Below are positions 991-41,282 of a stretch of 46,556 nucleotides of DNA, piece by piece. The DNA is from Candidatus Eiseniibacteriota bacterium (GTDB taxonomy: Bacteria > Orphanbacterota > Orphanbacteria > Orphanbacterales > Orphanbacteraceae). The notes under the pieces were generated by a model. It saw only the letters and a program-made list of their open reading frames with translations. It ran no database searches and was not told the origin of the DNA. Each line of letters begins with the position of its first letter. Positions within the stretch are counted from its first letter, which is position 1. The stretch lies in assembly GCA_024276995.1 (NCBI GenBank), contig JAJRWB010000055.1:1-46556 (forward strand). The letters are read 5' to 3'. A program made the translations under genes and the position numbers.

Positions 991-3204
991 ATGTCTTCCA
1001 CCTACGGACCATACGAGCTGGGCGACAAGATCGCCTCCGGGGGGATGGCGAGCCTCTACATCGGCGTGCACAGGCGGCTCGGGACAAAAGCCGCCATCAA
1101 GATCCTCCCCCGCTCCCTCGCCATGGACGAATCGTACATCGCCCGCTTCGAGCGGGAGGCGATGATCACTTCCCGCCTGAAACACGAAAACATCGTCCAG
1201 ATTCTCGACTTCGGCAAGAAAGATGATATCTATTATATCGTGATGGAATATGTCGAGGGGACCGACCTGCGTGTCCTTCTCGAAAGGATTTCGCGGTTTC
1301 CCGTCGAAATCGCCGTGTCGATTCTCGAGGAGGCGGCGTACGGATTGGAGGCCGCCCACGGCCAAGGGGTGATTCACAGGGATATCAAGCCGGGGAATAT
1401 CCTTCTCAGCCATACGGGCGGCGTGAAGATCGTCGATTTCGGACTCGCCCTTCACATGGCGGAGTACGAACGGCTCACACGGCTGACGGCGGACAACTTC
1501 TCCCTCGGTACGCCGGCGTACATGTCTCCCGAACAGGCGCTCGGCAGGGAGATCGATCACCGTGCCGATATCTACTCTCTCGGTGCGATGACATACGAAT
1601 TGTTCACGGGTAAAACGCCGTATCTTTCCGCCTCTCCCTCCGAGCTGCGCGAGAGAATCATCCACGACCCCCCCCCGTCGATGCGGGCCGAGAGCCGGCT
1701 CGTCACCGTGGAGGTGGACGACCTCGTGCGGAAGATGATGGCGAAAGATCCGGCCGACCGCTTCCAGAACATGGGAGAGGTTCTCCGTGCTGTGGACGAG
1801 ACGATGGTCTCCCTCGAGAAGGCGGGCTACACGGTGCGCTACCGCCGGAAGTACATGCCCCGATTCTCCAGGGATCCGGAGGAGTTTTCGCGCCGGCAGC
1901 GCGACGACAAGATCGAGATCCATAATAGGAGGGGACGGGAGTTCTTCGAGAGGGGTCCGAACGAATACCACCAGGCGCGCAGGGAGTTCGAAATCGTCCT
2001 GTGGCTCGATCCCGGGAACGAGGAGGCCGTCGCCGGTCTTGCGGAGATCAGGAAGAACCTGGGCGACGAGGCGACCCGCGACGTGGAGAGCGTCTTTCCC
2101 GAACCCTCCGGTGACGCGGCGGAAAACGGCCGTGACCGTCGGGGCGGATCGACCGGGGGGGAGGAGGGCGGGGGGAAGTGGAAGAAACCGAGAACCGTTT
2201 TTCTCGGGGCCGGCGCTGCCGTGATTCTCCTGTTTCTCGCGTGGCGGATCTTTTTCCCAGGCGGAAAGGGCTACCTATTCGTGTCGAGCGATCCCGACGG
2301 CGCCGTCGTTTCCGTGCGGGGAGAAAAAGATCACGGCTTTCGCTCCACCGGGCTCAGCACGCCGTGCACCATCGATCTCGGTGCGGGGAAGTGGACGATC
2401 CGCGTGAACCGCCAGGGCCTGGAAGTGACGGAAACGAATATCTTCCTCTCTTCGGGAGAAGAGAAGAGGCTTGATCTCACACTGCTTCCCCTTCACGGGT
2501 GGGTCGTGCTTCGCGGCGAGCCGGCGGGGGCGCGCCTCCTGATGCGGGGGCCGGGCGATGATGTTTACCGCCCGGCGGAAAAGGCGGTGCCCTGCACCCT
2601 CCGCGTTGCGCAGGGCGAGTGGTCGTTCGTCGCGGAAAAAGAGGAGTACCAGTCGGAGACGTTGAGCGTGTTCATCCGGTCGGGTGAGATCGAGTACGCC
2701 CGTGTCGGCCTGCACCCCCCGGGGGCGGCCCTCGGATGGGTGGTGATCCGCACCGAGCCTCCCGACGCGCGAATCGGGATCCGCCGCGCCGGCGACGTCG
2801 ATTTCGATCCGGTGGAGAGCGCGACACCGTGCTCTCTCGGGCTCGAGCCCGGTTCTTGGGAGATCAGCGTGAGGAAGAACTGCTACCGCACCGATGTGTC
2901 GGAAATCACCGTCGATGCGGGCGACGTGGTCCGAACCGCTGTGGCCCTCGATGCGATTCCGGGTGGGCGGCTGAAGGTGGTGATCAGCCCGCTGTTCGCC
3001 GACATTTATGTCGATGGAAAGCGCGTGGCCCGGGAGAAGCGCTTCTGGGAAGGACCGGTCTCTTCGTGCAGAACACACGACGTGGAAATCCGGCACGATT
3101 CGTTCGGCGTGCGTCGCGTGAAAAACATCGCCGTCCCCTCGGGAAGCAACGTGATCGTGGACACGCTCTTTTCGAAAGAGCGGGGAAGGGGGCGAACGAA
3201 ATGA
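991..3204 (+). CDS. Membrane-anchored Ser/Thr protein kinase with PEGA-like repeats
   Basis: A 737-residue Hanks-type (PknB-like) kinase. The kinase domain spans about residues 7-275: glycine loop IASGGMA, catalytic Lys37 in AAIKIL, HRDIKPGN with Asp131, DFG at 149-151 and TPAYMSPE at 174-181. All key residues are present, so it should be active. About residues 310-360 look TPR-like, followed by a low-complexity linker and one transmembrane helix near 402-422. The exported or periplasmic part holds four tandem PEGA-like beta modules (recurring GWVVIR.EP.DA.I and PC.L.L..G.W). Its TGA overlaps the next ATG (ATGA at 3201-3204), so it is translationally coupled to the small TPR protein and then the FN3/sorting-domain protein. 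The likely role is envelope sensing by the PEGA part with phosphorylation in the cytoplasm; targets are unknown. Confidence 0.93.
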   Translation: MSSTYGPYELGDKIASGGMASLYIGVHRRLGTKAAIKILPRSLAMDESYIARFEREAMITSRLKHENIVQILDFGKKDDIYYIVMEYVEGTDLRVLLERISRFPVEIAVSILEEAAYGLEAAHGQGVIHRDIKPGNILLSHTGGVKIVDFGLALHMAEYERLTRLTADNFSLGTPAYMSPEQALGREIDHRADIYSLGAMTYELFTGKTPYLSASPSELRERIIHDPPPSMRAESRLVTVEVDDLVRKMMAKDPADRFQNMGEVLRAVDETMVSLEKAGYTVRYRRKYMPRFSRDPEEFSRRQRDDKIEIHNRRGREFFERGPNEYHQARREFEIVLWLDPGNEEAVAGLAEIRKNLGDEATRDVESVFPEPSGDAAENGRDRRGGSTGGEEGGGKWKKPRTVFLGAGAAVILLFLAWRIFFPGGKGYLFVSSDPDGAVVSVRGEKDHGFRSTGLSTPCTIDLGAGKWTIRVNRQGLEVTETNIFLSSGEEKRLDLTLLPLHGWVVLRGEPAGARLLMRGPGDDVYRPAEKAVPCTLRVAQGEWSFVAEKEEYQSETLSVFIRSGEIEYARVGLHPPGAALGWVVIRTEPPDARIGIRRAGDVDFDPVESATPCSLGLEPGSWEISVRKNCYRTDVSEITVDAGDVVRTAVALDAIPGGRLKVVISPLFADIYVDGKRVAREKRFWEGPVSSCRTHDVEIRHDSFGVRRVKNIAVPSGSNVIVDTLFSKERGRGRTK

Positions 3205-6626: not shown

Positions 6627-8684
6627 TCAGCGTGCTCCGATGCCGCTCAATTCCTGTGCTTTCGAAAGCGCCAGGCGGCCTCGTCGTATATAGTTCATCG
6701 CCTTCTCGGCGCCGGGGTCGATGACGAGTACCTTCTCCCAGACGCCGATCGCCTCTTTGATGTGGCCCTCGGTGTAGAGATTCATTCCCTCGAACAGATA
6801 TGCCTGCTCGAGGTAGGAGGCGACGTTTTCCCAGCCGCCGTCGAGGTTGTAGACGAACTCGAAATAGCGTATCGCCTCGCCGCTCTTCCGGTTCTTGAGC
6901 ATGTCGAGGCCGAGGTCGTACATCCGCCCCGCCTCCTCCTTCTCCGCCGACGAGAGAATCTTCGCCGGGCGGTTCGTTTCCGTCGTGTTCCCCGCGCCCG
7001 CCGGCCCGTTGCGCTCGGCCGACGCGCTCTTCTCTTCCCTCTTCGCGCGACGAAGCTCGTACAGCAGGTCATCCCGCCCGGGCATGAGTTCGAGCGCCTC
7101 GGTGTACGCTTTCCGGGCGGCGCCGAAGTCGCCCCTCCTCTCGGCGCCCTTCGCTCTTTCCACGATCGCTTCGACCCGCACGGTGAGAAGGGAATCGATG
7201 CGGGCGAGGTAACGGGAGGCGTCGGCGTTGCCGGGATCGGCGTCGAGCGCCTTTTCGAACGAGGCTCGCGCCCCGGCGAAGTCGCCGAGAGCGAGCGCGC
7301 CGATTCCGCCGGTCATCAGGTCGGTCACCGCCCTCGTCTTCTCGCTCGTCCTGTCTAGCAGCGCGGTGGCCGCGTCGAGCGCTTCGGCGGCCCGGCCGTC
7401 GTCCACACCCGCGGCGATGGCGGCGCGGAATTCCCCGATTCCGTCGAGAAGCTTCCCGTCGCCGATTCGCTCTTTGCCGGCGGCGAGATGCTTTTCGTAG
7501 CGCGCCCGCGCGAGCGCGTGCTGCGCCGCTTCCCCGTCCGGGTCCCACAGGAGCGCCCTTTCGAACCAGATCTCCGCTTTTTCCCAGTTCCCACGCTTCA
7601 TTTCGCTTCGCCCCTTGGCGAGGTGACCGTCGATCTGCGACCGTTCCTTCTTCTCCAGTTCCTCCTCGGTTCTCTTCGCGAGGCGCTCATCGTCGCGCCG
7701 CGCCCGTTCGAGGCGAAGCGCGTCAAGATTCGGACCGAATCGCAGGATGAATTCCACCCTATGCGCCGTGCCCGGTTCTTGCATCGCGACGGCGTAGTCG
7801 ATGCGTCCCCCCCTGAGAGGAACGCCGATCCCGCCGGTCCACCCGTCTCCCCTTCCTCCGAAGCGCAGCGCGAGCCCGCCCGGAAGAAGTGTTTCCACGC
7901 CGAACGACCCCGCGGAGGCCACGGTGTTTCCCTGCTCCATCGATGCGACGAGGAGAACCTGGGTCACCGGTCTGCCGCGGAGGGGAATGGAGTACGAGAA
8001 GCCGGTCCGAATGAGGGTGGGGAATCTCTCTTCCGTCGATTCCAATGTAAGTTTCGGTTCAAGGGCGTTTCGAAGGGCGATGCCGAAGCCGAAGTTATCG
8101 GCCGACCAGGCGCTCCGATTCCGGCGGGGCGACAGGTAGAGGAAGCCGATATCCCCTCCCACCGAACTCGCCGAGCGTCCCGCGAGAGAGTGGGTTTCCA
8201 CCTTGAGGGACGCGCCGAACCGGGCGCCGCCGAAGGGAGGAAGTGCATATGTGAGGAGCCACTCGTTCTGCACATTCGAGAACTCGCCCGTAGGGGCGCC
8301 GTCGTCGTCGTAGCCGGAGATGCCCCCCAGGGCGTAGCGAAGATTGCCGAAGCCGATGGTGCCCAGGTCGAGCATCGGATGGATGTAACCGGCGTACGTG
8401 AAGCGGTTGCCGTCGGTGAAGGGCGCGGTGTAGAAGAGGGAGAATTCCTTTGAACCTTCCGCGCCGGCAGCCGCCGGATTCCACGCGAGCGACGCGGCAC
8501 CGCCGCCGAGTGCGACATACGCGCCCCCGAGGCTGAGCGCCCTCGCTCCCACGCCGTAGGCGAACGGCGAGAGAGTTCCCCCGTCGTTCGCGGCATGCAG
8601 GAGCGACGGGAGAAGCGCCGCAACGGCGAATAGGCCTCTAGTTGAGAACAGCGATCTTGTGGACCGCTTTTTCGCTCGTTCCAT
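6627..8684 (-). CDS. PorV/PorQ-like outer-membrane protein fused to TPR repeats
   Basis: 685 residues. A signal peptide (KKRSTRSLFSTRGLFAVAALLPSLLHA) is followed by a roughly 300-residue beta-barrel-like part of the PorV/PorQ (UPF0164-like) kind. The hallmark is the N-terminal run YGVGARALSLGGAYVALGGG then ASLAWNPAA. A charged, probably coiled segment follows (LERARRDDERLAKRTEEELEKK), and then TPR repeats fill about residues 330-685 (GNWEKAEIWFERALLWDPDG; GDFAGARASFEKALDADPGN; GHIKEAIGVWEKVLVIDPG). In Bacteroidetes, PorV carries cargo with C-terminal sorting domains during type IX secretion. Here the gene starts 47 bases inside the end of a giant protein with such a domain, so the two are probably translated together. 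The TPR tail is the unusual part, since PorV itself lacks one. Confidence 0.87.
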   Translation of the reverse strand: MERAKKRSTRSLFSTRGLFAVAALLPSLLHAANDGGTLSPFAYGVGARALSLGGAYVALGGGAASLAWNPAAAGAEGSKEFSLFYTAPFTDGNRFTYAGYIHPMLDLGTIGFGNLRYALGGISGYDDDGAPTGEFSNVQNEWLLTYALPPFGGARFGASLKVETHSLAGRSASSVGGDIGFLYLSPRRNRSAWSADNFGFGIALRNALEPKLTLESTEERFPTLIRTGFSYSIPLRGRPVTQVLLVASMEQGNTVASAGSFGVETLLPGGLALRFGGRGDGWTGGIGVPLRGGRIDYAVAMQEPGTAHRVEFILRFGPNLDALRLERARRDDERLAKRTEEELEKKERSQIDGHLAKGRSEMKRGNWEKAEIWFERALLWDPDGEAAQHALARARYEKHLAAGKERIGDGKLLDGIGEFRAAIAAGVDDGRAAEALDAATALLDRTSEKTRAVTDLMTGGIGALALGDFAGARASFEKALDADPGNADASRYLARIDSLLTVRVEAIVERAKGAERRGDFGAARKAYTEALELMPGRDDLLYELRRAKREEKSASAERNGPAGAGNTTETNRPAKILSSAEKEEAGRMYDLGLDMLKNRKSGEAIRYFEFVYNLDGGWENVASYLEQAYLFEGMNLYTEGHIKEAIGVWEKVLVIDPGAEKAMNYIRRGRLALSKAQELSGIGAR

Positions 8685-11600
8685 CTTCGTATCTCATTTC
8701 GATCACCGCGAGATAGCCGCCGTTGATCACGCGCCGTCCCGCGCCGTTCCTGCCGTCCCACACCGCTTCCACCACCCCGCTGCCGGCTACCGGCTCACGG
8801 AGGAGGACCACCGGCACGCCGAGGCCGGTGAAAATGGCGATTCTCGCTTCCCCCGCACCGCGCGCATAGAATGCGAATGTCGTCTTACCGAGTGCCGACG
8901 AAAACGGGTTCGGATAGTTCCGCAGACTCTTTTCAAAAGATTTATCTGAGAAATAAGTGTACGCCGACGGGTTCCGGCCGTCGTCACCGTCCGCCCTATC
9001 GAGGAATGGAATCTGCTCGGTGATCTCCGTATGATCGTCTTCGAAGCGGATCCGGAACGGTTCGGTCGCGGCGTCCTCGGCAATGTGGAGGGCGGCGACA
9101 ATCTCGATCGTATCGCCGACCGCCACCGGAAGAGAAGGCTCGAAATCGAAAACGACGAGATCCCCGCTCATCCTCCCCTCGGCGACGGCCGAATCGTTCC
9201 CGCCGGCGTACGCGGACGCGCCGGAAAGCCAGCGGGCCGCTTCGGCGTCATCCCCATTCGCGCCTTCCACTTCCAGCGAAAGCGACTCGAGGTGAAGATC
9301 GCTCCCCTCGCCGCCGCCGGGAACGAAAAGGCGGAATGTCATCGCGTCGTCCACTATGGAGCCGCCGGTCGAAAGTGCGGGAAGTTCGAGGTCTACCGCG
9401 TAGGTCAGCCTGTCGGAGAGTTCGACCACGTGGAATAGGGGCGTGGCGTAGTACGGTTTTTCGTCCGTGCCGAGACGGACAGAGGTCGCTTCTCCGTCAT
9501 TGCGGTCGACGACATCGATTCCCTCTCTCTCCGTTACGAAGCGGAAATATCCGCCCGGCGCGTCCGCCTTCAGGTCGATTTCCACGCCGACGAGGAGCGA
9601 ATCGCCCGGCTCGAGGGCGACGGCGCTCTCCGGTGCGAGGGTGACCGTATCGACGTCATCCACCGAAGGGGAGACCGAAGCGATCGCGTCGCCGTCGCGG
9701 ACGAGCTGGATCCTGTCGATGATCGATCGCACATCGACGCTTGATCCGTCATCTGATTCGAGACGGAGCCTCAGGCCGCGGAAGAGCACGGCGGAGAGCG
9801 AATCGCCCCCGTTGTGGCGGAGGAGAATATCGAAGGGATGGATTTCCGCCGCCCCCTGGAAGAGACTCGTCGATCCGTCGCCGTCCGCACCGGAAGCGAA
9901 GATCGAATCGGTGCGCGCCACGATCCGGGTGGATGGAGGCGGCGCCATGTCGAGGGCCACCAGAATCTCTTCACCGCTCGCGGCCGAGCAGGGGTCGACG
10001 TCGACCGTGTTGACACGAAAGGTTCCGATCGGCGCGGCGGGCGAAAGATCTCCTTCCACCGAGAGGGTGATCACATTGCTCGGAGGAAGGGTGATCTCAG
10101 GATCGAGATCGAACACGATCGAGTCGCCTCTCGCGCTCCAACCGTTGCCGGAGAAGCGGACGATGTCGCCGCTCACCATGCGGAGCGAATCGAACGGAAA
10201 GCCTCCTCCCCCCGTGAAGAGGGCGAGTGTCGTGACGGTGATGTCGGCGGTGCTTCCGGCGGTCCCCTCCGTGGTGAACGTCAGGTTCATCATCGGAACC
10301 GCCGTCGTGCCCCGGTTCGTCTCATCGGGGAAACGGTTCGCCACGTCCACCTCGAGGGCCGACGGAGGTTGGTAAAGATCGGTGGCTTCGGTGACGAAGG
10401 GGAAGTCGCCCTCCGCCGGAACCGTCCCGCCCGAGTTGGCGTCCACGGCGCGCACGACCGATTCGCTCGCGAGAACGACTCGAAAACGTCCGACGGAAGC
10501 AGTGTCGCTCATGTCGAGAAGGAGATTGATCGCGACACCGCTCCCGGGGGCGAGTCGCACCGGTGTGGAGAGGGGAATCGAAAGGGCGCCCGTCGAATCG
10601 GAGCGCGCCGTGGCGGTACCGATCTCTTCGCCCGTCCGGATCAGCCTAACGCTGTTCACGACGCCGGAGGGATCGATCGCCTTACCCTCTCCGTCGTCGA
10701 GGAGTAGGCCGATCGTATCGATTCGGATCGAAGCGGCGTCACTCGCCCCGGCATCGCCGTGTTCGAGCGAGATCACGAGGGCGGAGACATCGAGGGCCCC
10801 CACCGTGGTGGACGGGGGAAGTGTGGACACCGCTTCCACGTGGATCGATTCGGGCGTTTTCTGAATCCTCAGCGTGTTCGACTGCGCGGGAAGGGTCTGC
10901 ACCGCCTCGCCGGTCGGCCTTTCTCCCGCCGCCGATCCGCGGAAGAAGGCGGTACCCGGCGCGGAGGCGGTCGAGGTCCAGCGGAAGACGACCGATTCGT
11001 CCGGTTCGAGAGAGACGGGTGTCGAATCGGGACTCGACAAGATGAAAACCGAATCTCCTTCGATCACGAGGGCGCCCGGGGTCAGGCTGTCGATGGTTGT
11101 CGGGTTCAGGTAGCCGTGGTTGACCACGGTCATTTCGACGTCGAACACCTGGCCGACACTTACTTGTGACGGCAGCGTCGAAAGGGTCGCGAAAACAGGC
11201 GAGGTGGAGACCTGGAAGAGGGCGGGCGATTCGACGGAGCGGTCGATCGGTCCGTCGTTGGAAGACGCCATGGCGATGCCGTCTTCGGGGATCACCAAGC
11301 GGAACGTGGCGCCGTCGGCGGCGGTCGTGGCGATATCGACGCGTACCGAAAGCGTTTCGCCGGCAGAGGCGACAGGGATGCTGATCCCCTCTCTGACCCA
11401 CGACGAGCCGTCCCACACGAGGTCGCCCACGGCGGTTTCCGATGAGCCGCCGCTGAGGAGATGCATGGCGTCGAACTCCGAAGGCAGGAGCGTCCCGTCG
11501 GTCTGAAAATGAATCCCGGTGAGCGTGTCGTCGAGGCAGCCGTTCGGCGGGACGACGAAGCGGAAGACAAGCCGATCGTTTTCAGATGGACCAACGGCAC

Positions 11601-14600
11601 CGCCGGTGAGCGAAGGGAGACCGACTTGGGCGGCCGCCATGCCGTCCACCGGTCTTCCGTCTTCCGAACCGGAAAGGTGAAGGGAGCCCACCACCTGCCG
11701 GGAGGAAAGGAAGTTGAACGACGAGCCGTCGAGGATGCCCGCGTCGACCGTGTCGCCGTCGGCTACGCATCTCAGTCCCACGTCGACGGCCACGGTGAGG
11801 GTGCACGGTTCTCCCGGCACGATGGGGAGGGAGAAGTCGGAGAGAACGGCCGCCGACTCGATCATTCGCGCGGTGGCGAGAAGGGCGCCTCCGGGGGCGT
11901 CGTAGACCGTGTCGCTTCGCGACGCCGCCAGGAGGCGCACCCTTCGCGCCACCGAATCGGCCGCGATTCCCGCGGAACGGTTCGCCACCGAAAGGCCGGT
12001 GAGATATGCGGTATCCGAATAGACATTGGCGGCGAGGAAGCGGAACAGGGCGGCGCTCGTGTCGCCCGGAGACACCGGCCCGGCGAAGCCGCCCCGGAGC
12101 TTCGTGATCACGATCCTGTCGGCGCCCTGCGCGATCCACAGGTCGGTCGCCGTCACGGCGGAATCGACGGGACCGTCGTTGCCCGATGTCACGCCCGCGC
12201 CGTCCACCGGAAGCGAGAGGCGGATCGACCTTCCTTCCTCGGCGTCTTTGGAGAGGTCGATCGTTGCGAACAACCGCCTCCCTCCCGGCGGGATCGGAAG
12301 ATCAAGGCGGGACGCCGACCACAGGTCGCCGACCCACGAGAGCGCGCCGAGGGGGGTGTCGTCGTCCCCCTCGCCGCGGAAGACGCCGTCCCCTCCGTCG
12401 GCCCAGAGCTTCATTTCCGAAATATCGCCGCCCGCCTCGGCGTCGCCGAGATTCTCGATCATCAGCGTCTGCAGGGTATCGAGGAGATACCCGTCGGACG
12501 GGTAGTCGATTATGAGGGCGAGAGAATCGTCCGCTCCAGCCGGAAGGTTGTGGACGAACTCGCTGCTCATGCCGATCTGCGCCGCGATTACGCCGTCGAC
12601 AAAATGGCTCCCGGGGGAGTCGAGGGGAAACGATCCGAACACCGACGTGGTGTCATCGAACCGTATGGCGTTCGCGCTGTCGATCGCGATATCGAGCTGT
12701 TCTCCATCGGGCGCGGAGAAGAGGGATACGTCGCCGCACACGAGGACCGAAACGGTTTCCGCTTCCGCGATCTCGAGAGAAAGATCATCGAAAAGAGCGG
12801 TGTTCGAGGAGAACGAGGTGCTGTCGAGAACCGTTTCCCCGTAGTCCCATTCGCCGTCGCCGTCGGTGTCGCGTACGAGACGAAGAAGTCTCCATGTCGA
12901 ATCGAACTGCGCGGCGGAGCCTTCGCCCGCCGTAGTATTGGTCACCTCCACCGACGACAATGTCCTTGCCTGCTCCCAGAGATTCACCAGATCGAGCCGG
13001 AGAAGCGGGAGGGAGTCGGTGCCGGGATGGACGATCGAGCCGGGAATGAAGCGGGCCTCGGCGTGGATGTAGGGAGGCACGATTTCCACCGAGTTGTGGA
13101 GGGCGTTGAACGGGGCGGCATACGGGAGGCCGAACTCGTCTTCGCCTGTCATGTCGATGGTGAGGGGCCACGTACCCGGATCGAAATCGCTCGGTACGGC
13201 GCCGCTGTCGAAATAGAGGGTGGTCGTCTTGCCGTTCGCCTGGAGGTTCACCGGCGACACGAGAGGCGCGGAGAAGATCCGATCACCGTCGGTGAAGCGA
13301 AAGACCGTGCCCCCCTCGAGAAGGACGGCGGCGCTTCCGCGATTGCGCAGTGTGATGAGAAACGCGGCGGCGTCGCCCGGGCGTGTTTCGCCCGGGTAGA
13401 GGGAGCGCGCCACGTCCTCGATGAGCGGCGATCCCCCGACACGCCACCCGCCGAGACTGCCGGCATCGAGGTCGCCCACCGGGTCGGTATTCCCCTCTTC
13501 CGTTCCCGAAACCGATCCGTCGATCACCACGGTCGATCCGATGGACGCGGAGTCGGACACCGTCACCAGGAAGTCGAGGGTATCGGTCGCCCCGGGGGCG
13601 ATGTCGTGGGCCGCGATGCGCGCGGCGGCGTATGAATAGTCGCCCGACACGTTCGTTCCGTCCGAGGTGAAGCGAAGCGCTCCCGCCACGGAGTGAACAT
13701 TCTCCGTGCCGTCGTTTCGAACGACGAGACTCACCGGGATCCCCGTTTCACCGCGGCGCACCACGTCGCGATCCTCCACGACGGCGAGAAGCACGAGATC
13801 GCCCCCGCCGAGAACGGTGACCGAGACCGTGTCGGAAACGTCTCCCGCCGTCGCGATCACCGATCCACCGCCCGGCGCGGTCGCCGAAAAGAGACCGGAA
13901 CCGCTGATCGAGCCGATCGCTCCGGTAGTGCTCCATGAAACCGCGTCTCCGGTGACATTCCCTTCGCCGTCCACCGTGACGACTGTGAACGTCGTGTCGG
14001 CGTCGAGGGCGAGAATCGCGGCGGTGGGGGTGATCGTGATCGACCGCGCAGGCCCGGCGGTCACCACGATCGGTCCGCTCCTCCCGCTGATGTTCCCCAG
14101 CGTGACAGTCACCGAGTCGACGCCCGGTACGGTCGGGTCGAAGAGGCCGCTCGCGCCGTCGATCGTCCCGATCGCATCGCCGCCGCTCCAAGCGAGACCG
14201 GTGACGCCGGAGATCGGGTTATCCTCGCCGTCTCTCGCGATTGCCGTGAAGGTGATCGATCCTTCGATGTCCGTCGTATCGGTATGGGGGACCACTTCGA
14301 GAGACGCGACCGTTCCGTTGAGCACGGTAATCGACACCGTGTCGCGCACGTTTTCCGTTTCCCCTTCCACGAGAACGACTCCGGCGGTGTGGGGCGAAAA
14401 AACGCCTTCGGAGGAGATCGATCCATCGCCCGACACGATCGTCCACGTTACGATGGATGTGAAGGCGTTTCCATCGGCGTCGAACAGTTCGTATGTCAAT
14501 GTAATAATGTCGTCCGCCGTGATCGTCGTGTCGGTGGGGAGAATGGCGAGGGAATCGGCCGCGCCGCGGGTCACCGTGACCATTGAGCTGTCCGACAGCG

Positions 14601-16794
14601 CGCCCGACGTGGCGATCACGAAACCCGATCCGACGGCTCCGGCATCAAACACGCCCGATCCGCTTACCGAACCGATGCCGCCCGCCACGCTCCACGTCGG
14701 GCTCACGATCACCGGGAAGCCCCCGGTGTCGTAGCCCGTGGCGGTGAACGTCCGGGTCGAGTCGGCGTTCACCGTCGCCGACGACGGATTGACGACGATC
14801 GAGGCGAGTGCTCCGGATGTGACGGAGACGGTCGCGCTTCCCGTCACCCCTTCCGCGCTTCCCTTCACCGTGCCCGACCCGGGAGCAGACGGGTCGAACA
14901 CGCCGTCGTCGCCGATCGAGCCGGCCGTTCCCGAGAGCGACCAGGATATGGGCACGGTGAACGTGTTGCCGTCGCCGTCGCGGGCGGTGGCCCCGTACGG
15001 GACCGTTTCGTCGACGGTGATCGTCGTGTCGGCGGGGACGACGGTCAGCGTCGCCACCGCGCCATGGGTCACCGTGACGGCGACGGTATCCCGCTTCGAG
15101 CCGGAAAGAGCGATCACCTTCCCGCTCCCGACGGCTCCGGCGCTGAAGAGACCCGCGCCGTCGATCGTGCCGACGCCGCCGCTCACCGACCACGCAGGCG
15201 ATACGGGAGCGGACGTCCCGCCCGCGAAGTAGCCGACCGCCGTGTAGTTCACCGATTGGTCGGCGGTAACGGTCGTATCGGCCGGGGAAACGACGATGCT
15301 GTCGAGCGTGCCGGGCACGACGGTGAACGAGGCGGTGTCCGAAATCGCCCCCGAGCGGGCGGTCACGATTCCCGCGCCGGAGCCGCCGGGTACGAAAAGC
15401 CCCGCGTCGTCGATTACGCCGATCCCGACCGGCTCCGCCCACGAGTCGATGGCCGGCGTGAAGCTGTTGCCGTCGCCGTCCATTCCCGAGGCGGTGTATT
15501 GGAGCGAATCGCCGAAGGGGATCGTCGCGCTCGCCGGCGTCAATGTAAGAGCGACGAGCGCGCCGTGGCTCACGGTGACGGAGGAGGATCCGGTGATACC
15601 CGATGCGGTGGCGTTTACCGAGCCGCTTCCGACGGTGGTCGCATCGAAGAGCCCGTCGATATCGATCGAACCGATTCCGCCGCCGACGTCCCATGTCGGC
15701 GAGATCGCCACAGTGTTCTCCTTCGAGTCGAAGCCGGCGGCGGAAAAGGAAAGCGCCGAGTCGGCGGTCAACGTCGCGCTCGCCGGATCGACGGTTACCG
15801 TAGCGAGCGCGCCGTGGACGATAATCACTCTCGCCGAATCGGCCACGTCTCCGGAGCTTCCGATCACGTATGTCGTGCCCACCACGGTGGGCACGAAAAG
15901 CCCCGTGCCGTCGATTGTTCCAAGACCGGTCGGTTCGCTCCACGCGACCACGGGAGTGAACGGGTTCATGTCGGCATCGAAGGCGGAAGCGGCGAAGGAC
16001 AACGAGTCGTCCGCGCTGATCGTCGTGTCCGAAGGGGTGAGTATCAGCGTGCTCACCGCTCCCGCCGTTACGATGACCGAAGAGCTGTCCGAAAAGCTTC
16101 CCGTCGTGGCGATGATGGAGCCGCTCCCCACGGTGATCGGGTCGAATAGCCCGCCGGCGGTGATCGTTCCGATCCCCCCCGTCACGTTCCACGCCGGAAC
16201 GATCGGAACCGGATTACCCTTCGCGTCCGCTCCCGCTGCGGTGAAGGTGAGCGAGGAATCGGACGAAAGGGAAGCCGATCCGGGGGTCACCGTGACCGAC
16301 GCGAGCGCCCCGGCGGTGATCGTCGCGCCGGCGCTGTCGGCGATCCCTTCCGAAACGGCTACAATGAGCGCCGCGCCGGCACTCCCCGGCGTGTAGACGC
16401 CGCCGGCGTCGATCGAACCGAGTCCGGTCGGTTCCGACCACGCCACCGGCGAGGGAGTGAACATATTCCCGTCCCGATCCCATGCCTTGGCGCCGTATGG
16501 AATCGTGTCGTCCGCGGTGACCGAGGTGTCGGCGGGAAAAACGGCGAGAGAATCGACCGCCCCCCGGGTGACGGTGACGAGTGCCGTATCGTACACGCCG
16601 TCCTTCGTCGCGATCACCGAGCCGCTTCCCACCGTCGTTGGGTCGAAAAGGCCGGTCGTATCGATCGTTCCGATTCCGCCGGTGACGCTCCATGTCACCG
16701 CGAGCGGATCTTCCTGGCCTGAGCCGCTATAGCCGACCGCTTCGAAGGTGATCGAGGAATCGGTGGTGGCCGTCGCCGATGCCGGCGTGATCAC
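8638..16794 (-). CDS. Giant exported Ig-repeat protein with sorting domain (part after the amber codon)
   Basis: This is the 2718-codon stretch from a GTG at 16794 to TAG at 8638-8640. The GTG is only the first possible start after an in-frame TAG (16906-16908); there is no signal peptide here, and the frame is continuous with the exported N-terminal part at 16906-17934. Most likely it is one gene of 3099 codons. It contains about 12 bacterial Ig-like (BIG2-type) repeats of about 83 residues, then CARDB-like and other beta modules (VVEDRDVVRRGETGIPVSLV; several units with FRLVIPEDGI / IRLSLPVDGA). The C-terminal domain is FlgD-like: LRNYPNPFSSALGKTTFAF, WDGRNGAGRRV, INGGYLAVIEMRY. The composition (Ser, Thr, Asp, Gly, Val; very few Cys) fits a surface adhesin or stalk-like protein. 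The PorV-like gene overlaps its end. Confidence 0.9.
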   Translation of the reverse strand: MITPASATATTDSSITFEAVGYSGSGQEDPLAVTWSVTGGIGTIDTTGLFDPTTVGSGSVIATKDGVYDTALVTVTRGAVDSLAVFPADTSVTADDTIPYGAKAWDRDGNMFTPSPVAWSEPTGLGSIDAGGVYTPGSAGAALIVAVSEGIADSAGATITAGALASVTVTPGSASLSSDSSLTFTAAGADAKGNPVPIVPAWNVTGGIGTITAGGLFDPITVGSGSIIATTGSFSDSSSVIVTAGAVSTLILTPSDTTISADDSLSFAASAFDADMNPFTPVVAWSEPTGLGTIDGTGLFVPTVVGTTYVIGSSGDVADSARVIIVHGALATVTVDPASATLTADSALSFSAAGFDSKENTVAISPTWDVGGGIGSIDIDGLFDATTVGSGSVNATASGITGSSSVTVSHGALVALTLTPASATIPFGDSLQYTASGMDGDGNSFTPAIDSWAEPVGIGVIDDAGLFVPGGSGAGIVTARSGAISDTASFTVVPGTLDSIVVSPADTTVTADQSVNYTAVGYFAGGTSAPVSPAWSVSGGVGTIDGAGLFSAGAVGSGKVIALSGSKRDTVAVTVTHGAVATLTVVPADTTITVDETVPYGATARDGDGNTFTVPISWSLSGTAGSIGDDGVFDPSAPGSGTVKGSAEGVTGSATVSVTSGALASIVVNPSSATVNADSTRTFTATGYDTGGFPVIVSPTWSVAGGIGSVSGSGVFDAGAVGSGFVIATSGALSDSSMVTVTRGAADSLAILPTDTTITADDIITLTYELFDADGNAFTSIVTWTIVSGDGSISSEGVFSPHTAGVVLVEGETENVRDTVSITVLNGTVASLEVVPHTDTTDIEGSITFTAIARDGEDNPISGVTGLAWSGGDAIGTIDGASGLFDPTVPGVDSVTVTLGNISGRSGPIVVTAGPARSITITPTAAILALDADTTFTVVTVDGEGNVTGDAVSWSTTGAIGSISGSGLFSATAPGGGSVIATAGDVSDTVSVTVLGGGDLVLLAVVEDRDVVRRGETGIPVSLVVRNDGTENVHSVAGALRFTSDGTNVSGDYSYAAARIAAHDIAPGATDTLDFLVTVSDSASIGSTVVIDGSVSGTEEGNTDPVGDLDAGSLGGWRVGGSPLIEDVARSLYPGETRPGDAAAFLITLRNRGSAAVLLEGGTVFRFTDGDRIFSAPLVSPVNLQANGKTTTLYFDSGAVPSDFDPGTWPLTIDMTGEDEFGLPYAAPFNALHNSVEIVPPYIHAEARFIPGSIVHPGTDSLPLLRLDLVNLWEQARTLSSVEVTNTTAGEGSAAQFDSTWRLLRLVRDTDGDGEWDYGETVLDSTSFSSNTALFDDLSLEIAEAETVSVLVCGDVSLFSAPDGEQLDIAIDSANAIRFDDTTSVFGSFPLDSPGSHFVDGVIAAQIGMSSEFVHNLPAGADDSLALIIDYPSDGYLLDTLQTLMIENLGDAEAGGDISEMKLWADGGDGVFRGEGDDDTPLGALSWVGDLWSASRLDLPIPPGGRRLFATIDLSKDAEEGRSIRLSLPVDGAGVTSGNDGPVDSAVTATDLWIAQGADRIVITKLRGGFAGPVSPGDTSAALFRFLAANVYSDTAYLTGLSVANRSAGIAADSVARRVRLLAASRSDTVYDAPGGALLATARMIESAAVLSDFSLPIVPGEPCTLTVAVDVGLRCVADGDTVDAGILDGSSFNFLSSRQVVGSLHLSGSEDGRPVDGMAAAQVGLPSLTGGAVGPSENDRLVFRFVVPPNGCLDDTLTGIHFQTDGTLLPSEFDAMHLLSGGSSETAVGDLVWDGSSWVREGISIPVASAGETLSVRVDIATTAADGATFRLVIPEDGIAMASSNDGPIDRSVESPALFQVSTSPVFATLSTLPSQVSVGQVFDVEMTVVNHGYLNPTTIDSLTPGALVIEGDSVFILSSPDSTPVSLEPDESVVFRWTSTASAPGTAFFRGSAAGERPTGEAVQTLPAQSNTLRIQKTPESIHVEAVSTLPPSTTVGALDVSALVISLEHGDAGASDAASIRIDTIGLLLDDGEGKAIDPSGVVNSVRLIRTGEEIGTATARSDSTGALSIPLSTPVRLAPGSGVAINLLLDMSDTASVGRFRVVLASESVVRAVDANSGGTVPAEGDFPFVTEATDLYQPPSALEVDVANRFPDETNRGTTAVPMMNLTFTTEGTAGSTADITVTTLALFTGGGGFPFDSLRMVSGDIVRFSGNGWSARGDSIVFDLDPEITLPPSNVITLSVEGDLSPAAPIGTFRVNTVDVDPCSAASGEEILVALDMAPPPSTRIVARTDSIFASGADGDGSTSLFQGAAEIHPFDILLRHNGGDSLSAVLFRGLRLRLESDDGSSVDVRSIIDRIQLVRDGDAIASVSPSVDDVDTVTLAPESAVALEPGDSLLVGVEIDLKADAPGGYFRFVTEREGIDVVDRNDGEATSVRLGTDEKPYYATPLFHVVELSDRLTYAVDLELPALSTGGSIVDDAMTFRLFVPGGGEGSDLHLESLSLEVEGANGDDAEAARWLSGASAYAGGNDSAVAEGRMSGDLVVFDFEPSLPVAVGDTIEIVAALHIAEDAATEPFRIRFEDDHTEITEQIPFLDRADGDDGRNPSAYTYFSDKSFEKSLRNYPNPFSSALGKTTFAFYARGAGEARIAIFTGLGVPVVLLREPVAGSGVVEAVWDGRNGAGRRVINGGYLAVIEMRYEDGTSEKAVHKIAVLN

Positions 16795-20611: not shown

Positions 20612-23587
20612 ATGGTGCTTTCATCTGCCGCCGCGCGACTCGTGCTTTCCATCCTCGCTCTCGCGCCGGCGACCGCCCTTTCCGCGGGCGAGAGCGGGGG
20701 AGAGGGACGGTTCCTCGCCAACACGAGGCAACTGATCTTCGAGGGTGCCCGTTCGGGAGAGGGGTATTTTTCCGCCGACGGGACGAAGATGATCTTCCAG
20801 AGCGAACGGGAAGAGGGAAACCCGTTCTACCAGATTTACATTCTCGACTTCGAGAGCGGAGAATCGCATCGCGTTTCCCCCGGCACGGGGAAGACGACGT
20901 GCCCCTTCTTCCGCCCCGACGGGAAGAGAGTGCTCTTCGCGTCGACCCATCTCGATCCCGACGCGGTGAAGAAGCAGGAGGAGGAACTCGCCTTTCGGAA
21001 GTCGGGAAAGAAGCGGCGTTACAGTTGGGACTACGACGCGACGATGGATATCTTCACGGCGAATCCCGACGGGAGCGAACGGAAGCGGCTCACCGATGCG
21101 GTCGGGTATGACGCGGAAGGGGCGTACTCGCCGGACGGTCGCAAGATCGTCTTTTGTTCCCTCCGTTCCGGTTACGAACCGGGTCTTTCCGAGGCGGATC
21201 GGAAGAGACTCGAAGTCGACCCATCCTATTTCGGCGAGATCTATATCATGAACGCCGACGGTTCGAACCAGGAGCGGCTCACCGACGATCCAGGCTACGA
21301 CGGCGGCCCGTTCTTCACTCCATCGGGCGACCGCATCGTGTGGCGCCATTTCGGCGAGGATGGAATGATCGCCGATGTGTATACGATGAAGCTCGACGGG
21401 TCGGACGTAAGGCGGATCACCAATTTCGGGGCGATGTCGTGGGCGCCCTATTTTCATCCTTCGGGAAAGTACATCGTCTTCGCATCGAACAAGCTCGGCT
21501 TTTCCAATTTCGAGCTTTACATGACCGACGCTCTCGGCGAAAAGGAACCGGTGCGCGTGACCTATACCGATCGTTTCGACGGCCTTCCCGTGTTTTCGCC
21601 CGACGGCACGCGTCTCGCGTGGACCGCCACCCGTGCGGCGGGCGGAACGACGCAGATCTACCTGGCCGACTGGAATCACGATGCGGCACTTGCGGCGATC
21701 GGCGAAGCACCGCCGCGTAGTGGGGCTGCCGAGGTGGGCGAAACGGAAGCAAAGGGCGGGCGGAGTGCCGCCACGGTGATCGTGGGCGCCACAAGTATTG
21801 CCGGCGTTTCGCCGTTTTCCCCGGAGATCTCCGCAGCCGACCTGGAACGCCGCGTGGCGTTTCTCGCGTCGGACGAGCGTGAGGGAAGACTCACCGGCTC
21901 GAAGGGCGCGCGGGAGGCGGCCGATTCCATCGCCGCCGCCCTCGCCGGCGCCGGCGTCGCTCCGGCGGGCGACGCGGGCGGTTACTTCCAGGAATTCCCT
22001 TTTCCCTCGGCGGTGGAAATCGATCCGGACGAGACGGCGCTCATGGTGTACGGGATTTCCGAAGACGGTCCGGCGCTGCTCGAACTCGATCGAGATTTTC
22101 GTCCCCTTTCGTTTTCTTCATCCGGCGGGGCGCACGGCGATGTCGTCTTCTGCGGCTATGGGCTCGTCGTTCCCGGCGAGAATAAAGAGCGGTTCGATTC
22201 GTATAACGGCCTCGATGTGAGCGGCAAAGTGGTGCTCCTCCTCGACGGCGTGCCGCTCGATCTTCCCGCCCCGGAAAAAAGCCGTCTCCATCTTCACGCC
22301 GGGCTCAGAGAGAAAGCCCTCGCCGCGCGCGATCGGGGTGCGGTGGGCGTACTCGTCGTCCGCGGTCCCCATTCAGACGATGCGGGGAAGCTCATCCCCC
22401 TTTCCTACGACACGAAGCTTTCCGATGCGGGTATTCCCGCCGCATCGATCGCCGGCGACGCGGCGGAGCGGATGTTCGCCGCCGCCGGCGAAAACCTCGA
22501 TGCCGTCGGGGCCGATCTCGCCGCCGGCGGCGTTTCGTCCTTCCCCCTCGACGGGATCTCGGTGCGTCTCTACACCGCTCTTCGCCGAAGCGAAAGCAAG
22601 GGCCGGAACGTGATCGGCGTGCTCCCGCCCCGCGGCGGCGAAGCAGGGGGTGAATACATCCTCATCTGCGCGCACTACGACCATCTCGGCCACGGGGAGA
22701 TCGGGTCCCTCGCCGGGGAAGACGAGAAGGGCGAGATTCACAACGGCGCCGACGACAACGCGTCGGGCACGGCGGTGGTGCTCGAACTCGCCGCGGCGCT
22801 CGGGGCGAAGCGAAAAAGCGAACCGGAGAAGTTCGATGGAGGATTCCTCTTCGCACTCTGGTCGGGCGAGGAACTCGGTCTCGTCGGGTCGTCGTTCTTC
22901 GCGGACCACCCGGTTGTGCCGATCGAAACGATCGACGCGTGTCTCAACTTCGACATGGTCGGCCGTCTCAGGAAGAACCACCTCACGCTGCAGGGAATCG
23001 GTTCGTCAAACGCCTGGCCCGCTCTGATCGAAAGAAAAAACGTCCTCGCCGGCTTCGATATCGCCATGAGGAATGAACCGTTCCTTCCGACCGACGCCAC
23101 CTCGCTCTACAAGAAAGGCGTGCCCGCCCTCACCTTCTTCACAGGCGTTCATGACGAGTACAGTCGCCCCGCCGACAAGGCGTCGACGTTGAACTACGAC
23201 GGGCTTGAGAAGATCGGCCGCTTCGCGCTGCGCATGGCGCTCGATCTCGCACAGGGGGAGCGCCCCGCATTCACGGCGATGGAGAAACCTTCCGGCATGG
23301 GCGGCGCGCAAAGCGGCGGCAGGCCTTACCTCGGTACGATCCCCGATTACGCGGGGAGCGATGTGAAAGGTGTGCGCCTCACCGGCGTCAGGGAAGGAGG
23401 CCCGGCGGCAAAGGGGGGCGTTCGTGGAGGCGACGTGATCATCCGATTTGCCGGATCGGACATTTCGAACATTTACGAATATACAAATATACTTGACGTC
23501 GTGAATGTCGGCGAGCCCGTCGAGATCACTGTTCTGCGGGACGGGAAAAAGATCGACCTGACCGTCATTCCCGAATCGAAGAAGTGA
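20612..23587 (+). CDS. Exported peptidase: TolB-like PD40 repeats, PA domain, M28 metallopeptidase and PDZ
   Basis: 991 residues, start supported by GGGAGG 11 bases upstream. Domains in order: signal peptide (1-25); a TolB/PD40 propeller at about 35-365 (YFSADGTKMIFQS, YSPDGRKIVFCS, FHPSGKYIVFAS, FSPDGTRLAW); a PA-type domain at about 480-640 (VVFCGYGLVVPG, DVSGKVVLLLDG); an M28 catalytic domain at about 640-880; and a C-terminal PDZ domain at about 895-985 (GVREGGPAAKGGVRGGDVII). The M28 zinc ligands and catalytic acids are all visible: AHYDHLG (near 688), NGADDNASG (714), SGEELGL (753), NFDMVG (780), GVHDEYS (846). It should be an active periplasmic or secreted aminopeptidase. The four-part fusion is notable, because PD40 propellers are usually found with S9 peptidases or TolB. 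Confidence 0.92.
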   Translation: MVLSSAAARLVLSILALAPATALSAGESGGEGRFLANTRQLIFEGARSGEGYFSADGTKMIFQSEREEGNPFYQIYILDFESGESHRVSPGTGKTTCPFFRPDGKRVLFASTHLDPDAVKKQEEELAFRKSGKKRRYSWDYDATMDIFTANPDGSERKRLTDAVGYDAEGAYSPDGRKIVFCSLRSGYEPGLSEADRKRLEVDPSYFGEIYIMNADGSNQERLTDDPGYDGGPFFTPSGDRIVWRHFGEDGMIADVYTMKLDGSDVRRITNFGAMSWAPYFHPSGKYIVFASNKLGFSNFELYMTDALGEKEPVRVTYTDRFDGLPVFSPDGTRLAWTATRAAGGTTQIYLADWNHDAALAAIGEAPPRSGAAEVGETEAKGGRSAATVIVGATSIAGVSPFSPEISAADLERRVAFLASDEREGRLTGSKGAREAADSIAAALAGAGVAPAGDAGGYFQEFPFPSAVEIDPDETALMVYGISEDGPALLELDRDFRPLSFSSSGGAHGDVVFCGYGLVVPGENKERFDSYNGLDVSGKVVLLLDGVPLDLPAPEKSRLHLHAGLREKALAARDRGAVGVLVVRGPHSDDAGKLIPLSYDTKLSDAGIPAASIAGDAAERMFAAAGENLDAVGADLAAGGVSSFPLDGISVRLYTALRRSESKGRNVIGVLPPRGGEAGGEYILICAHYDHLGHGEIGSLAGEDEKGEIHNGADDNASGTAVVLELAAALGAKRKSEPEKFDGGFLFALWSGEELGLVGSSFFADHPVVPIETIDACLNFDMVGRLRKNHLTLQGIGSSNAWPALIERKNVLAGFDIAMRNEPFLPTDATSLYKKGVPALTFFTGVHDEYSRPADKASTLNYDGLEKIGRFALRMALDLAQGERPAFTAMEKPSGMGGAQSGGRPYLGTIPDYAGSDVKGVRLTGVREGGPAAKGGVRGGDVIIRFAGSDISNIYEYTNILDVVNVGEPVEITVLRDGKKIDLTVIPESKK

Positions 23588-23591
23588 CGAT

Positions 23592-23615
23592 CCCTGTTCG
23601 AGAGCGCGAACGGGG
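23592..23615. repeat. Hairpin between the M28 peptidase and the ArsC-like selenoprotein
   Basis: CCCTGTTCG (23592-23600) can pair with CGAACGGGG (23607-23615), nine pairs with one G-U and a six-base loop. No T-run follows on either strand, so it is not a standard intrinsic terminator. It may separate or protect the two messages. Confidence 0.4.
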
Positions 23616-23660
23616 TGGGTCGTGTCGAGGGCGGTGATTCGAATTCGAAAGGGAGAAGCG

Positions 23661-24002
23661 ATGGCGAAGATCATCCATTGGCTCTACTTTCGCAAGGGGT
23701 GAACGAGCTGCGGAAAAGCCTCCAAGTTTCTGGAGGCGAAGAAAATCGAACCGAAGGAAGAAGTCTCGGCTTCGAAGAAGCTCGGCCGGGACGAGGCGGC
23801 CGAGCTCTTCCGCGGTGCCTCTCGCGTGGTGATCTGCAAGGGAAAGAAGGTGGACGAATACCGCCCGGCGGGAAAAGCAGACGACGAGGGCGTGGAGAAG
23901 ATGCTCGGTCCGACGGGAAACCTCCGTGCCCCCACGATCCGCGCCGAGAAGACGGTGGTTGTGGGTTACAACGAAAAGGTGTTCGGCGAACTGTTCGTTT
24001 GA
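23661..24002 (+). CDS. ArsC/Spx-family selenoprotein (Sec at codon 14)
   Basis: 113 residues when the TGA at 23700-23702 is read as selenocysteine. The start at 23661 has GGGAGAAG just upstream. The N-terminus reads MAKIIHWLYFRKG-U-TSCGKASKFLEA: a thioredoxin-fold beta strand followed by a U-x-x-C redox motif exactly where ArsC/Spx relatives have CxxC. The remainder is typical of the family (ELFRGASRVVICKGKK; GPTGNLRAPTIRAEKTVVVG, then YNEKVFGELF). The frame stays open to a normal TGA at 24000-24002. A perfect stem-loop starts 15 bases after the Sec codon. Proteins of this type with either Cys or Sec are known as ArsC family (seleno)proteins. It is probably a cytoplasmic thiol/selenol reductase; a role in arsenate reduction is not shown. 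Confidence 0.9.
23703..23737 (+). promoter_or_regulatory. Bacterial SECIS element of the ArsC-like selenoprotein
   Basis: Directly after the TGA (23700-23702), GCCTCCA (23718-23724) pairs perfectly with TGGAGGC (23731-23737) around the loop AGTTTC. The loop begins 22 bases after the TGA and has G as its second base. This agrees with the known bacterial SECIS pattern of a short stem with a G among the first two loop bases about 16-37 bases downstream. The coding frame continues through it. Confidence 0.82.
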
Positions 24003-24059
24003 ACTCCCGTCGCGGGTCGATCGCATCCGGGGCGCGATTGCACGTTCCGCGCAGTCCGC

Positions 24060-24509
24060 TCAACCCCGCGTGACGATCGAGTCGTTGTAAGGCCCCGCGG
24101 GGCGGTCGTCATCCGGCGCGGCGGGCCGGCCTGACCGGCATGGCGTGCGGGGCGAGGAACCGCCGCTGCGAAGGACGAAACGGTAGAGGTGTCCGCGATT
24201 GAAGAACCAGGCGGCGCCGATGAGAAGGAAAAGGCCGCCCGTTATCGACATGACGGGAAGACGGTCGAGGATTCCGGCGCCGGTGAAGAGGATACCCGTT
24301 AGAACGAGAAACGCCGGGACGATCGGCGAGAAGCGGAGCCTCACGAAAAGGGGAAGGTCGCCGTACGATTTCGGAAAAGTTCTCTCCCGTGCGGCCTCGT
24401 CCGGAGCGAACGCTTCGATGGCGATGTCCGACTCGCAACGCCCACCGCGGTGAGGGCGCTTTCTTCCCGCCGCGCCCTCGGTGATGGGAATGATCTTTCT
24501 CTTCGCCAT
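24060..24509 (-). CDS. Small two-helix membrane protein, function unknown
   Basis: 149 residues. The start at 24509 is preceded by GGGAG with good spacing, and a strong promoter lies upstream. The N-terminal half is polar and basic (MAKRKIIPITEGAAGRKRPH). Two transmembrane helices follow at about 65-80 and 85-105 (FSPIVPAFLVLTGILFTGAG; VMSITGGLFLLIGAAWFF), then a basic Arg/Pro/Ser-rich tail. I recognise no family. It is divergent from MoaB and convergent with the ArsC-like selenoprotein. The SD and promoter make it a real gene rather than a chance ORF. Confidence 0.65.
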   Translation of the reverse strand: MAKRKIIPITEGAAGRKRPHRGGRCESDIAIEAFAPDEAARERTFPKSYGDLPLFVRLRFSPIVPAFLVLTGILFTGAGILDRLPVMSITGGLFLLIGAAWFFNRGHLYRFVLRSGGSSPRTPCRSGRPAAPDDDRPAGPYNDSIVTRG

Positions 24510-37805: not shown

Positions 37806-41141
<3,336 letters not shown>

Positions 41142-41194
41142 CGGCGACGGTCCTTTCCACCAGAGTGCTGAACAGGAGCGAGATGTTCCCGGAA

Positions 41195-41200
41195 AGGATA
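41195..41200 (-). promoter_or_regulatory. Possible pullulanase promoter (extended -10 only)
   Basis: Minus strand TGT-TATCCT with the box at 41195-41200, about 55 bases before the pullulanase ATG. No convincing -35, so it could be driven by the ECF factor or an activator, or be spurious. Confidence 0.3.
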
Positions 41201-41282
41201 ACAGATGGTGAAGCGGAACGCATGACCTCATGGCGACCGGGAGATTCGGATGCGTGTCCGGCCTCCTTCGCGACGCCGCCTG

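Follow-up and report, generated by a model that had tools for sequence, protein, structure and literature searches.

Arsenate reductase-like selenoproteins have been catalogued before. The 2008 Global Ocean Sampling survey listed 'Arsenate reductase 2' (cd03032, UxxC) with 42 selenoproteins (PMC2398784), and a 2026 review citing that survey lists an 'Arsenate reductase-like protein' (NF041106, UxxC; PMC13188914). A literature search found no paper under 'ArsC family' combined with 'selenoprotein'; the family goes under 'arsenate reductase'. 'Arsenate reductase 2' joins an ArsC/Spx-like domain to a UxxC motif, as does the protein described here, a likeness drawn from the listing and not from the survey sequences. 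The UxxS 'ArsC 1' group of the same survey (pfam03960, PMC2398784) is likewise an ArsC-like selenoprotein with Sec at an N-terminal catalytic position, but the present protein has UxxC and stays below the gathering cut-off of Pfam ArsC (PF03960; 15.1 versus 24 bits). For the decoding signal, a bacterial SECIS model has been published that sets constraints on loop, stem and spacing and an energy below -7.5 kcal/mol (PMC13188914).

The window, that is, the whole stretch of 46,556 nucleotides analysed, almost certainly holds a genuine selenoprotein gene of the NF041106 group, with hairpin-directed Sec at residue 14 of a stand-alone Spx/ArsC-like Trx-fold UxxC redox protein. Sequence evidence demonstrates the recoded frame, the presence of the machinery genes, the conservation of UGA and hairpin and, in relatives, selection on the frame. 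The gene (23661..24002, plus strand; 113 aa, predicted Sec at residue 14) was assigned from its NF041106 match, from homologues with the same TGA and by alignment. It runs from the ATG at 23661 through an internal TGA at 23700-23702 to the terminal TGA at 24000-24002, and reads MAKIIHWLYFRKG-TGA-TSCGKASKFLEAKK...LRAPTIRAEKTVVVGYNEKVFGELFV-stop. Re-reading of the sequence confirmed the preliminary description of a 113-codon frame with TGA at codon 14, in coordinates and content. With a TGA inside its frame, the gene would escape a standard gene caller. A GGAG tetranucleotide (23652..23655, plus strand), 5 nt 5' of the ATG, was read from the sequence as a putative Shine-Dalgarno-like element. 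A promoter scan found no promoter-like site, and a terminator scan returned a single weak candidate, no better than expected by chance.

Codon 14 (23700..23702, plus strand) is the U of UTSC and was assigned as Sec from the TGA of aligned relatives and the Cys codon of the Cys-form relative (L022). Sec had been proposed to occupy the position of the leading Cys of CxxC, and the alignment of Sec and Cys forms bore this out: TGA14 falls on that Cys in L022 and on the first Cys of the Spx CTSC motif. The TGC at 23709..23711 (plus strand) encodes Cys17, the second residue of UxxC and probably the resolving Cys, which was invariant in the 13-sequence alignment together with W7, Y9, R11, U/C14, G61, G83, G86, L88, R89, P91, V101 and G102. 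The segment R89-A90-P91 (23925..23933, plus strand), with R89 and P91 invariant, was aligned to the LRRP of Spx and lies where the Trx/ArsC fold has its cis-proline segment; a cis-proline role is predicted for it.

Among 193 related genomes, ten members scored over the NF041106 cut-off, and nine of the ten had a single in-frame TGA. The tenth (L022, genome G141) had Cys at the TGA codon, no hairpin, and a genome without SelA. Over the same cut-off, all 35 members in the phylum of G091 carried one TGA, and TGA was also carried by the members (4/4) in the phylum of G101. In relatives that were read out, the TGA lay at the same codon, as it did in three more homologues of 56-63% identity on named contigs (two from deltaproteobacterial/Myxococcota MAGs and one from a Thermoanaerobaculia MAG).

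Genes for Sec decoding, for which a search of the genome had been suggested, were all found: tRNA-Sec (anticodon TCA), SelB (359 bits), SelD (380 bits; L049, contig C49:5158-6081, minus strand) and SelA, although the assembled SelA carries a frameshift. SelA was recovered in two frames, covering profile positions 1-313 (410 bits) and 306-453, and the frame seems to slip near an A run (L046, about 1521-1524, minus strand; C12, about 39.05 kb). SelA is intact in four relatives from the same bacterial family (G001-G004), and the frameshift is private to the assembly of this genome; it is therefore more likely to reflect an error of assembly or a mutation of very recent date than a loss long ago, and is probably an assembly error, otherwise a recent loss. 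SelD itself has the appearance of a selenoprotein: its frame contains a TGA, the U of AGUAAK, and a stable hairpin comes after it. SelA was also found in the UGA genomes G001, G031, G045, G086, G091, G101 and G143; the exception among UGA genomes was G005, a draft 82% complete in 830 contigs, where no SelA was found. In the Cys-form genome G141 there was no SelA, the best match (E 8e-4) belonging to another enzyme. UGA forms from genomes with SelA and a Cys form from one that lacks it together make a clean Sec/Cys exchange.

The perfect 7-bp stem-loop noted just after UTSC was present as claimed (23718..23737, plus strand), and was annotated as a bacterial SECIS hairpin from folding, conservation and the bSECIS constraints (PMC13188914). 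Its arms are GCCTCCA (23718-23724) and TGGAGGC (23731-23737), its loop is AGTTTC (23725-23730; AGUUUC in the RNA), it starts 15 nt past the TGA, and its centroid energy was -13.1 kcal/mol. The SECIS prediction that had been advised was carried out against the published constraints (PMC13188914), with all of which the hairpin agrees: a 6-nt loop with GU at positions 2 and 3, a 7-bp stem and 22 nt from UGA to loop. Taken alone, the window copy is unremarkable, as 25 of 200 dinucleotide shuffles folded equally well, and about 10% of synonymous recodings kept 7 bp at its place (p about 0.1). Its own evidence is modest because the protein sequence SKFLE itself favours complementarity.

A hairpin of 5-9 bp at equal distance from the UGA was present in all 40 distinct UGA members examined, relatives that are not independent of one another, and the mean stem was 6.5 bp in UGA members but 2.4 bp when the same proteins were recoded synonymously. 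The hairpin register differs by one base between lineages. In five members of the same register, 100% of cells paired and two pairs were altered on both sides (compensatory), whereas pairing fell to 37-46% in a sliding helix control on the same members. The Cys form had only 2 bp at the hairpin position, a weak control, being a single sequence. What makes the predicted SECIS convincing is its breadth across lineages together with the compensatory changes, and not the window copy alone. A chance hairpin was considered and rejected, its position being conserved in 40/40 UGA members with compensatory changes. A scan of 23400-24300 against Rfam gave no match with E up to 1; because SECIS elements are diverse, this was not counted against the hairpin.

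For family assignment, the read-through protein was compared with NCBIfam NF041106, 'ArsC family (seleno)protein' (ArsC_rel_Se_1), and scored 107.5 bits (cut-off 85) over profile positions 1-107 of 107. As the family definition has it, Sec or Cys opens the UxxC/CxxC motif (TGA at codon 14 in relatives, Cys in L022), and Sec falls in the same column. There was no difference of substance from NF041106; the window protein is somewhat divergent, and comes from a phylum sparsely represented in the comparison set (7 genomes). When a 13-member profile was searched against the PDB, the nearest solved structures were those of Spx (E about 6e-9), followed by ArsC-related proteins, and the profile alignment placed Sec on the first Cys of Spx CTSC. 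The proposed ArsC/Spx-type fold is thus supported by NF041106 and the PDB search, while the ArsC part of the label was not carried by Pfam ArsC, which stayed below cut-off. Spx (PDB 3gfk, 1z3e) is of similar length, its CTSC aligns with UTSC, and its C-terminal half is aligned as well, but the first Cys is here replaced by Sec, and the scores lie far below the Spx/MgsR model cut-offs (TIGR01617, 24.3 versus 75.05 bits; NF002459, 27 versus 123 bits).

In the proposed mechanism, SelB with Sec-tRNA-Sec would bind the hairpin 15 nt past the UGA, and Sec would be inserted at residue 14 in place of termination; Sec insertion in the window organism itself is predicted from sequence. The UxxC site would then act as a thiol-selenol redox centre, in which the selenolate would attack the substrate and Cys17 would resolve via an Se-S bond. 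This Se-S cycle and the oxidoreductase role are suggested by fold family and motif, which make thiol-selenol oxidoreduction through the UxxC pair the most likely function. A more specific role, as an RNA polymerase-binding Spx-like regulator or as a true arsenate reductase in place of a general oxidoreductase, appears unlikely: it accords with the order of the closest solved structures by profile, but the Spx scores given above speak against the former, and against the latter the neighbours examined contained no ars genes. The designation 'arsenate reductase-like' is a homology label only, and the sequence evidence does not imply that the protein reduces arsenate. Still more doubtful is the idea of a UxxC centre that serves not as a catalytic reductase but as a selenium-based redox switch, controlling a partner protein as Spx does.

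A scan of the neighbouring genes in the window and in several relatives showed that they differ, with no shared partner, no clue to function and no ars genes among those examined, and the ArsC-like selenoprotein gene appears to stand alone. Its upstream neighbour on the same strand encodes a PD40/M28 peptidase/PDZ protein. Elsewhere in the window are a 2718-aa open frame (8638-16794, minus strand) with a bacterial Ig-like domain as its sole match, a candidate large surface protein, and a 1141-aa pullulanase-type alpha-1,6-glucosidase (37806-41231, minus strand).

Selection past the TGA was estimated from two close relatives (L030 and L031), which differ by 35 substitutions over the 297 nt from the TGA, 30 of them at third positions. 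In the UGA frame dS was 0.64 and dN 0.03, and the two other forward frames showed the reversed codon-position pattern, which points to purifying selection on the UGA frame past the TGA in relatives. A sequencing or assembly error at the TGA, or the decay of a former Cys-protein gene into a pseudogene, is hard to credit: single-base errors are possible in a draft assembly, as the SelA frameshift suggests, but the same TGA codon recurs in independently assembled genomes of several phyla, with a conserved hairpin and purifying selection beyond it. The idea that one of the longer overlapping frames (23615-24073, plus; 23565-24026, minus; 23671-24063, minus) is the true gene and the UGA frame a coincidence can be set aside, for although these frames are open in the window, as is usual for GC-rich DNA, none matched a Pfam family, the relatives' substitutions track UGA-frame codon positions, and protein conservation lies in the UGA frame.

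Further TGA-bearing sequences came to light. L102, L103, L105 and other sub-threshold places form a second TGA-bearing ArsC/Grx-like clade (GUPTC, GUPAC), scoring 51-59 bits against the cut-off of 85 and over no other NCBIfam cut-off, with a hairpin visible past the TGA; this clade may be an unnamed sister selenoprotein family. L104 (G254:C219:14003-14617) is a Spx/MgsR-type protein (TIGR01617, 89.7 bits over the cut-off of 75.05) whose UTSC begins with TGA, followed by a possible hairpin, and is a candidate for a Sec-containing member of the Spx/MgsR group.

The window gene is an additional member of a known family and of low novelty, since the family is already catalogued. The finding changes no view; what it contributes is one more well-supported member, from a sparsely sampled bacterial phylum, of a catalogued selenoprotein family. 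If the UxxC centre did act as a redox switch on a partner protein, these little-studied bacteria would have a stress response gated by selenium supply.
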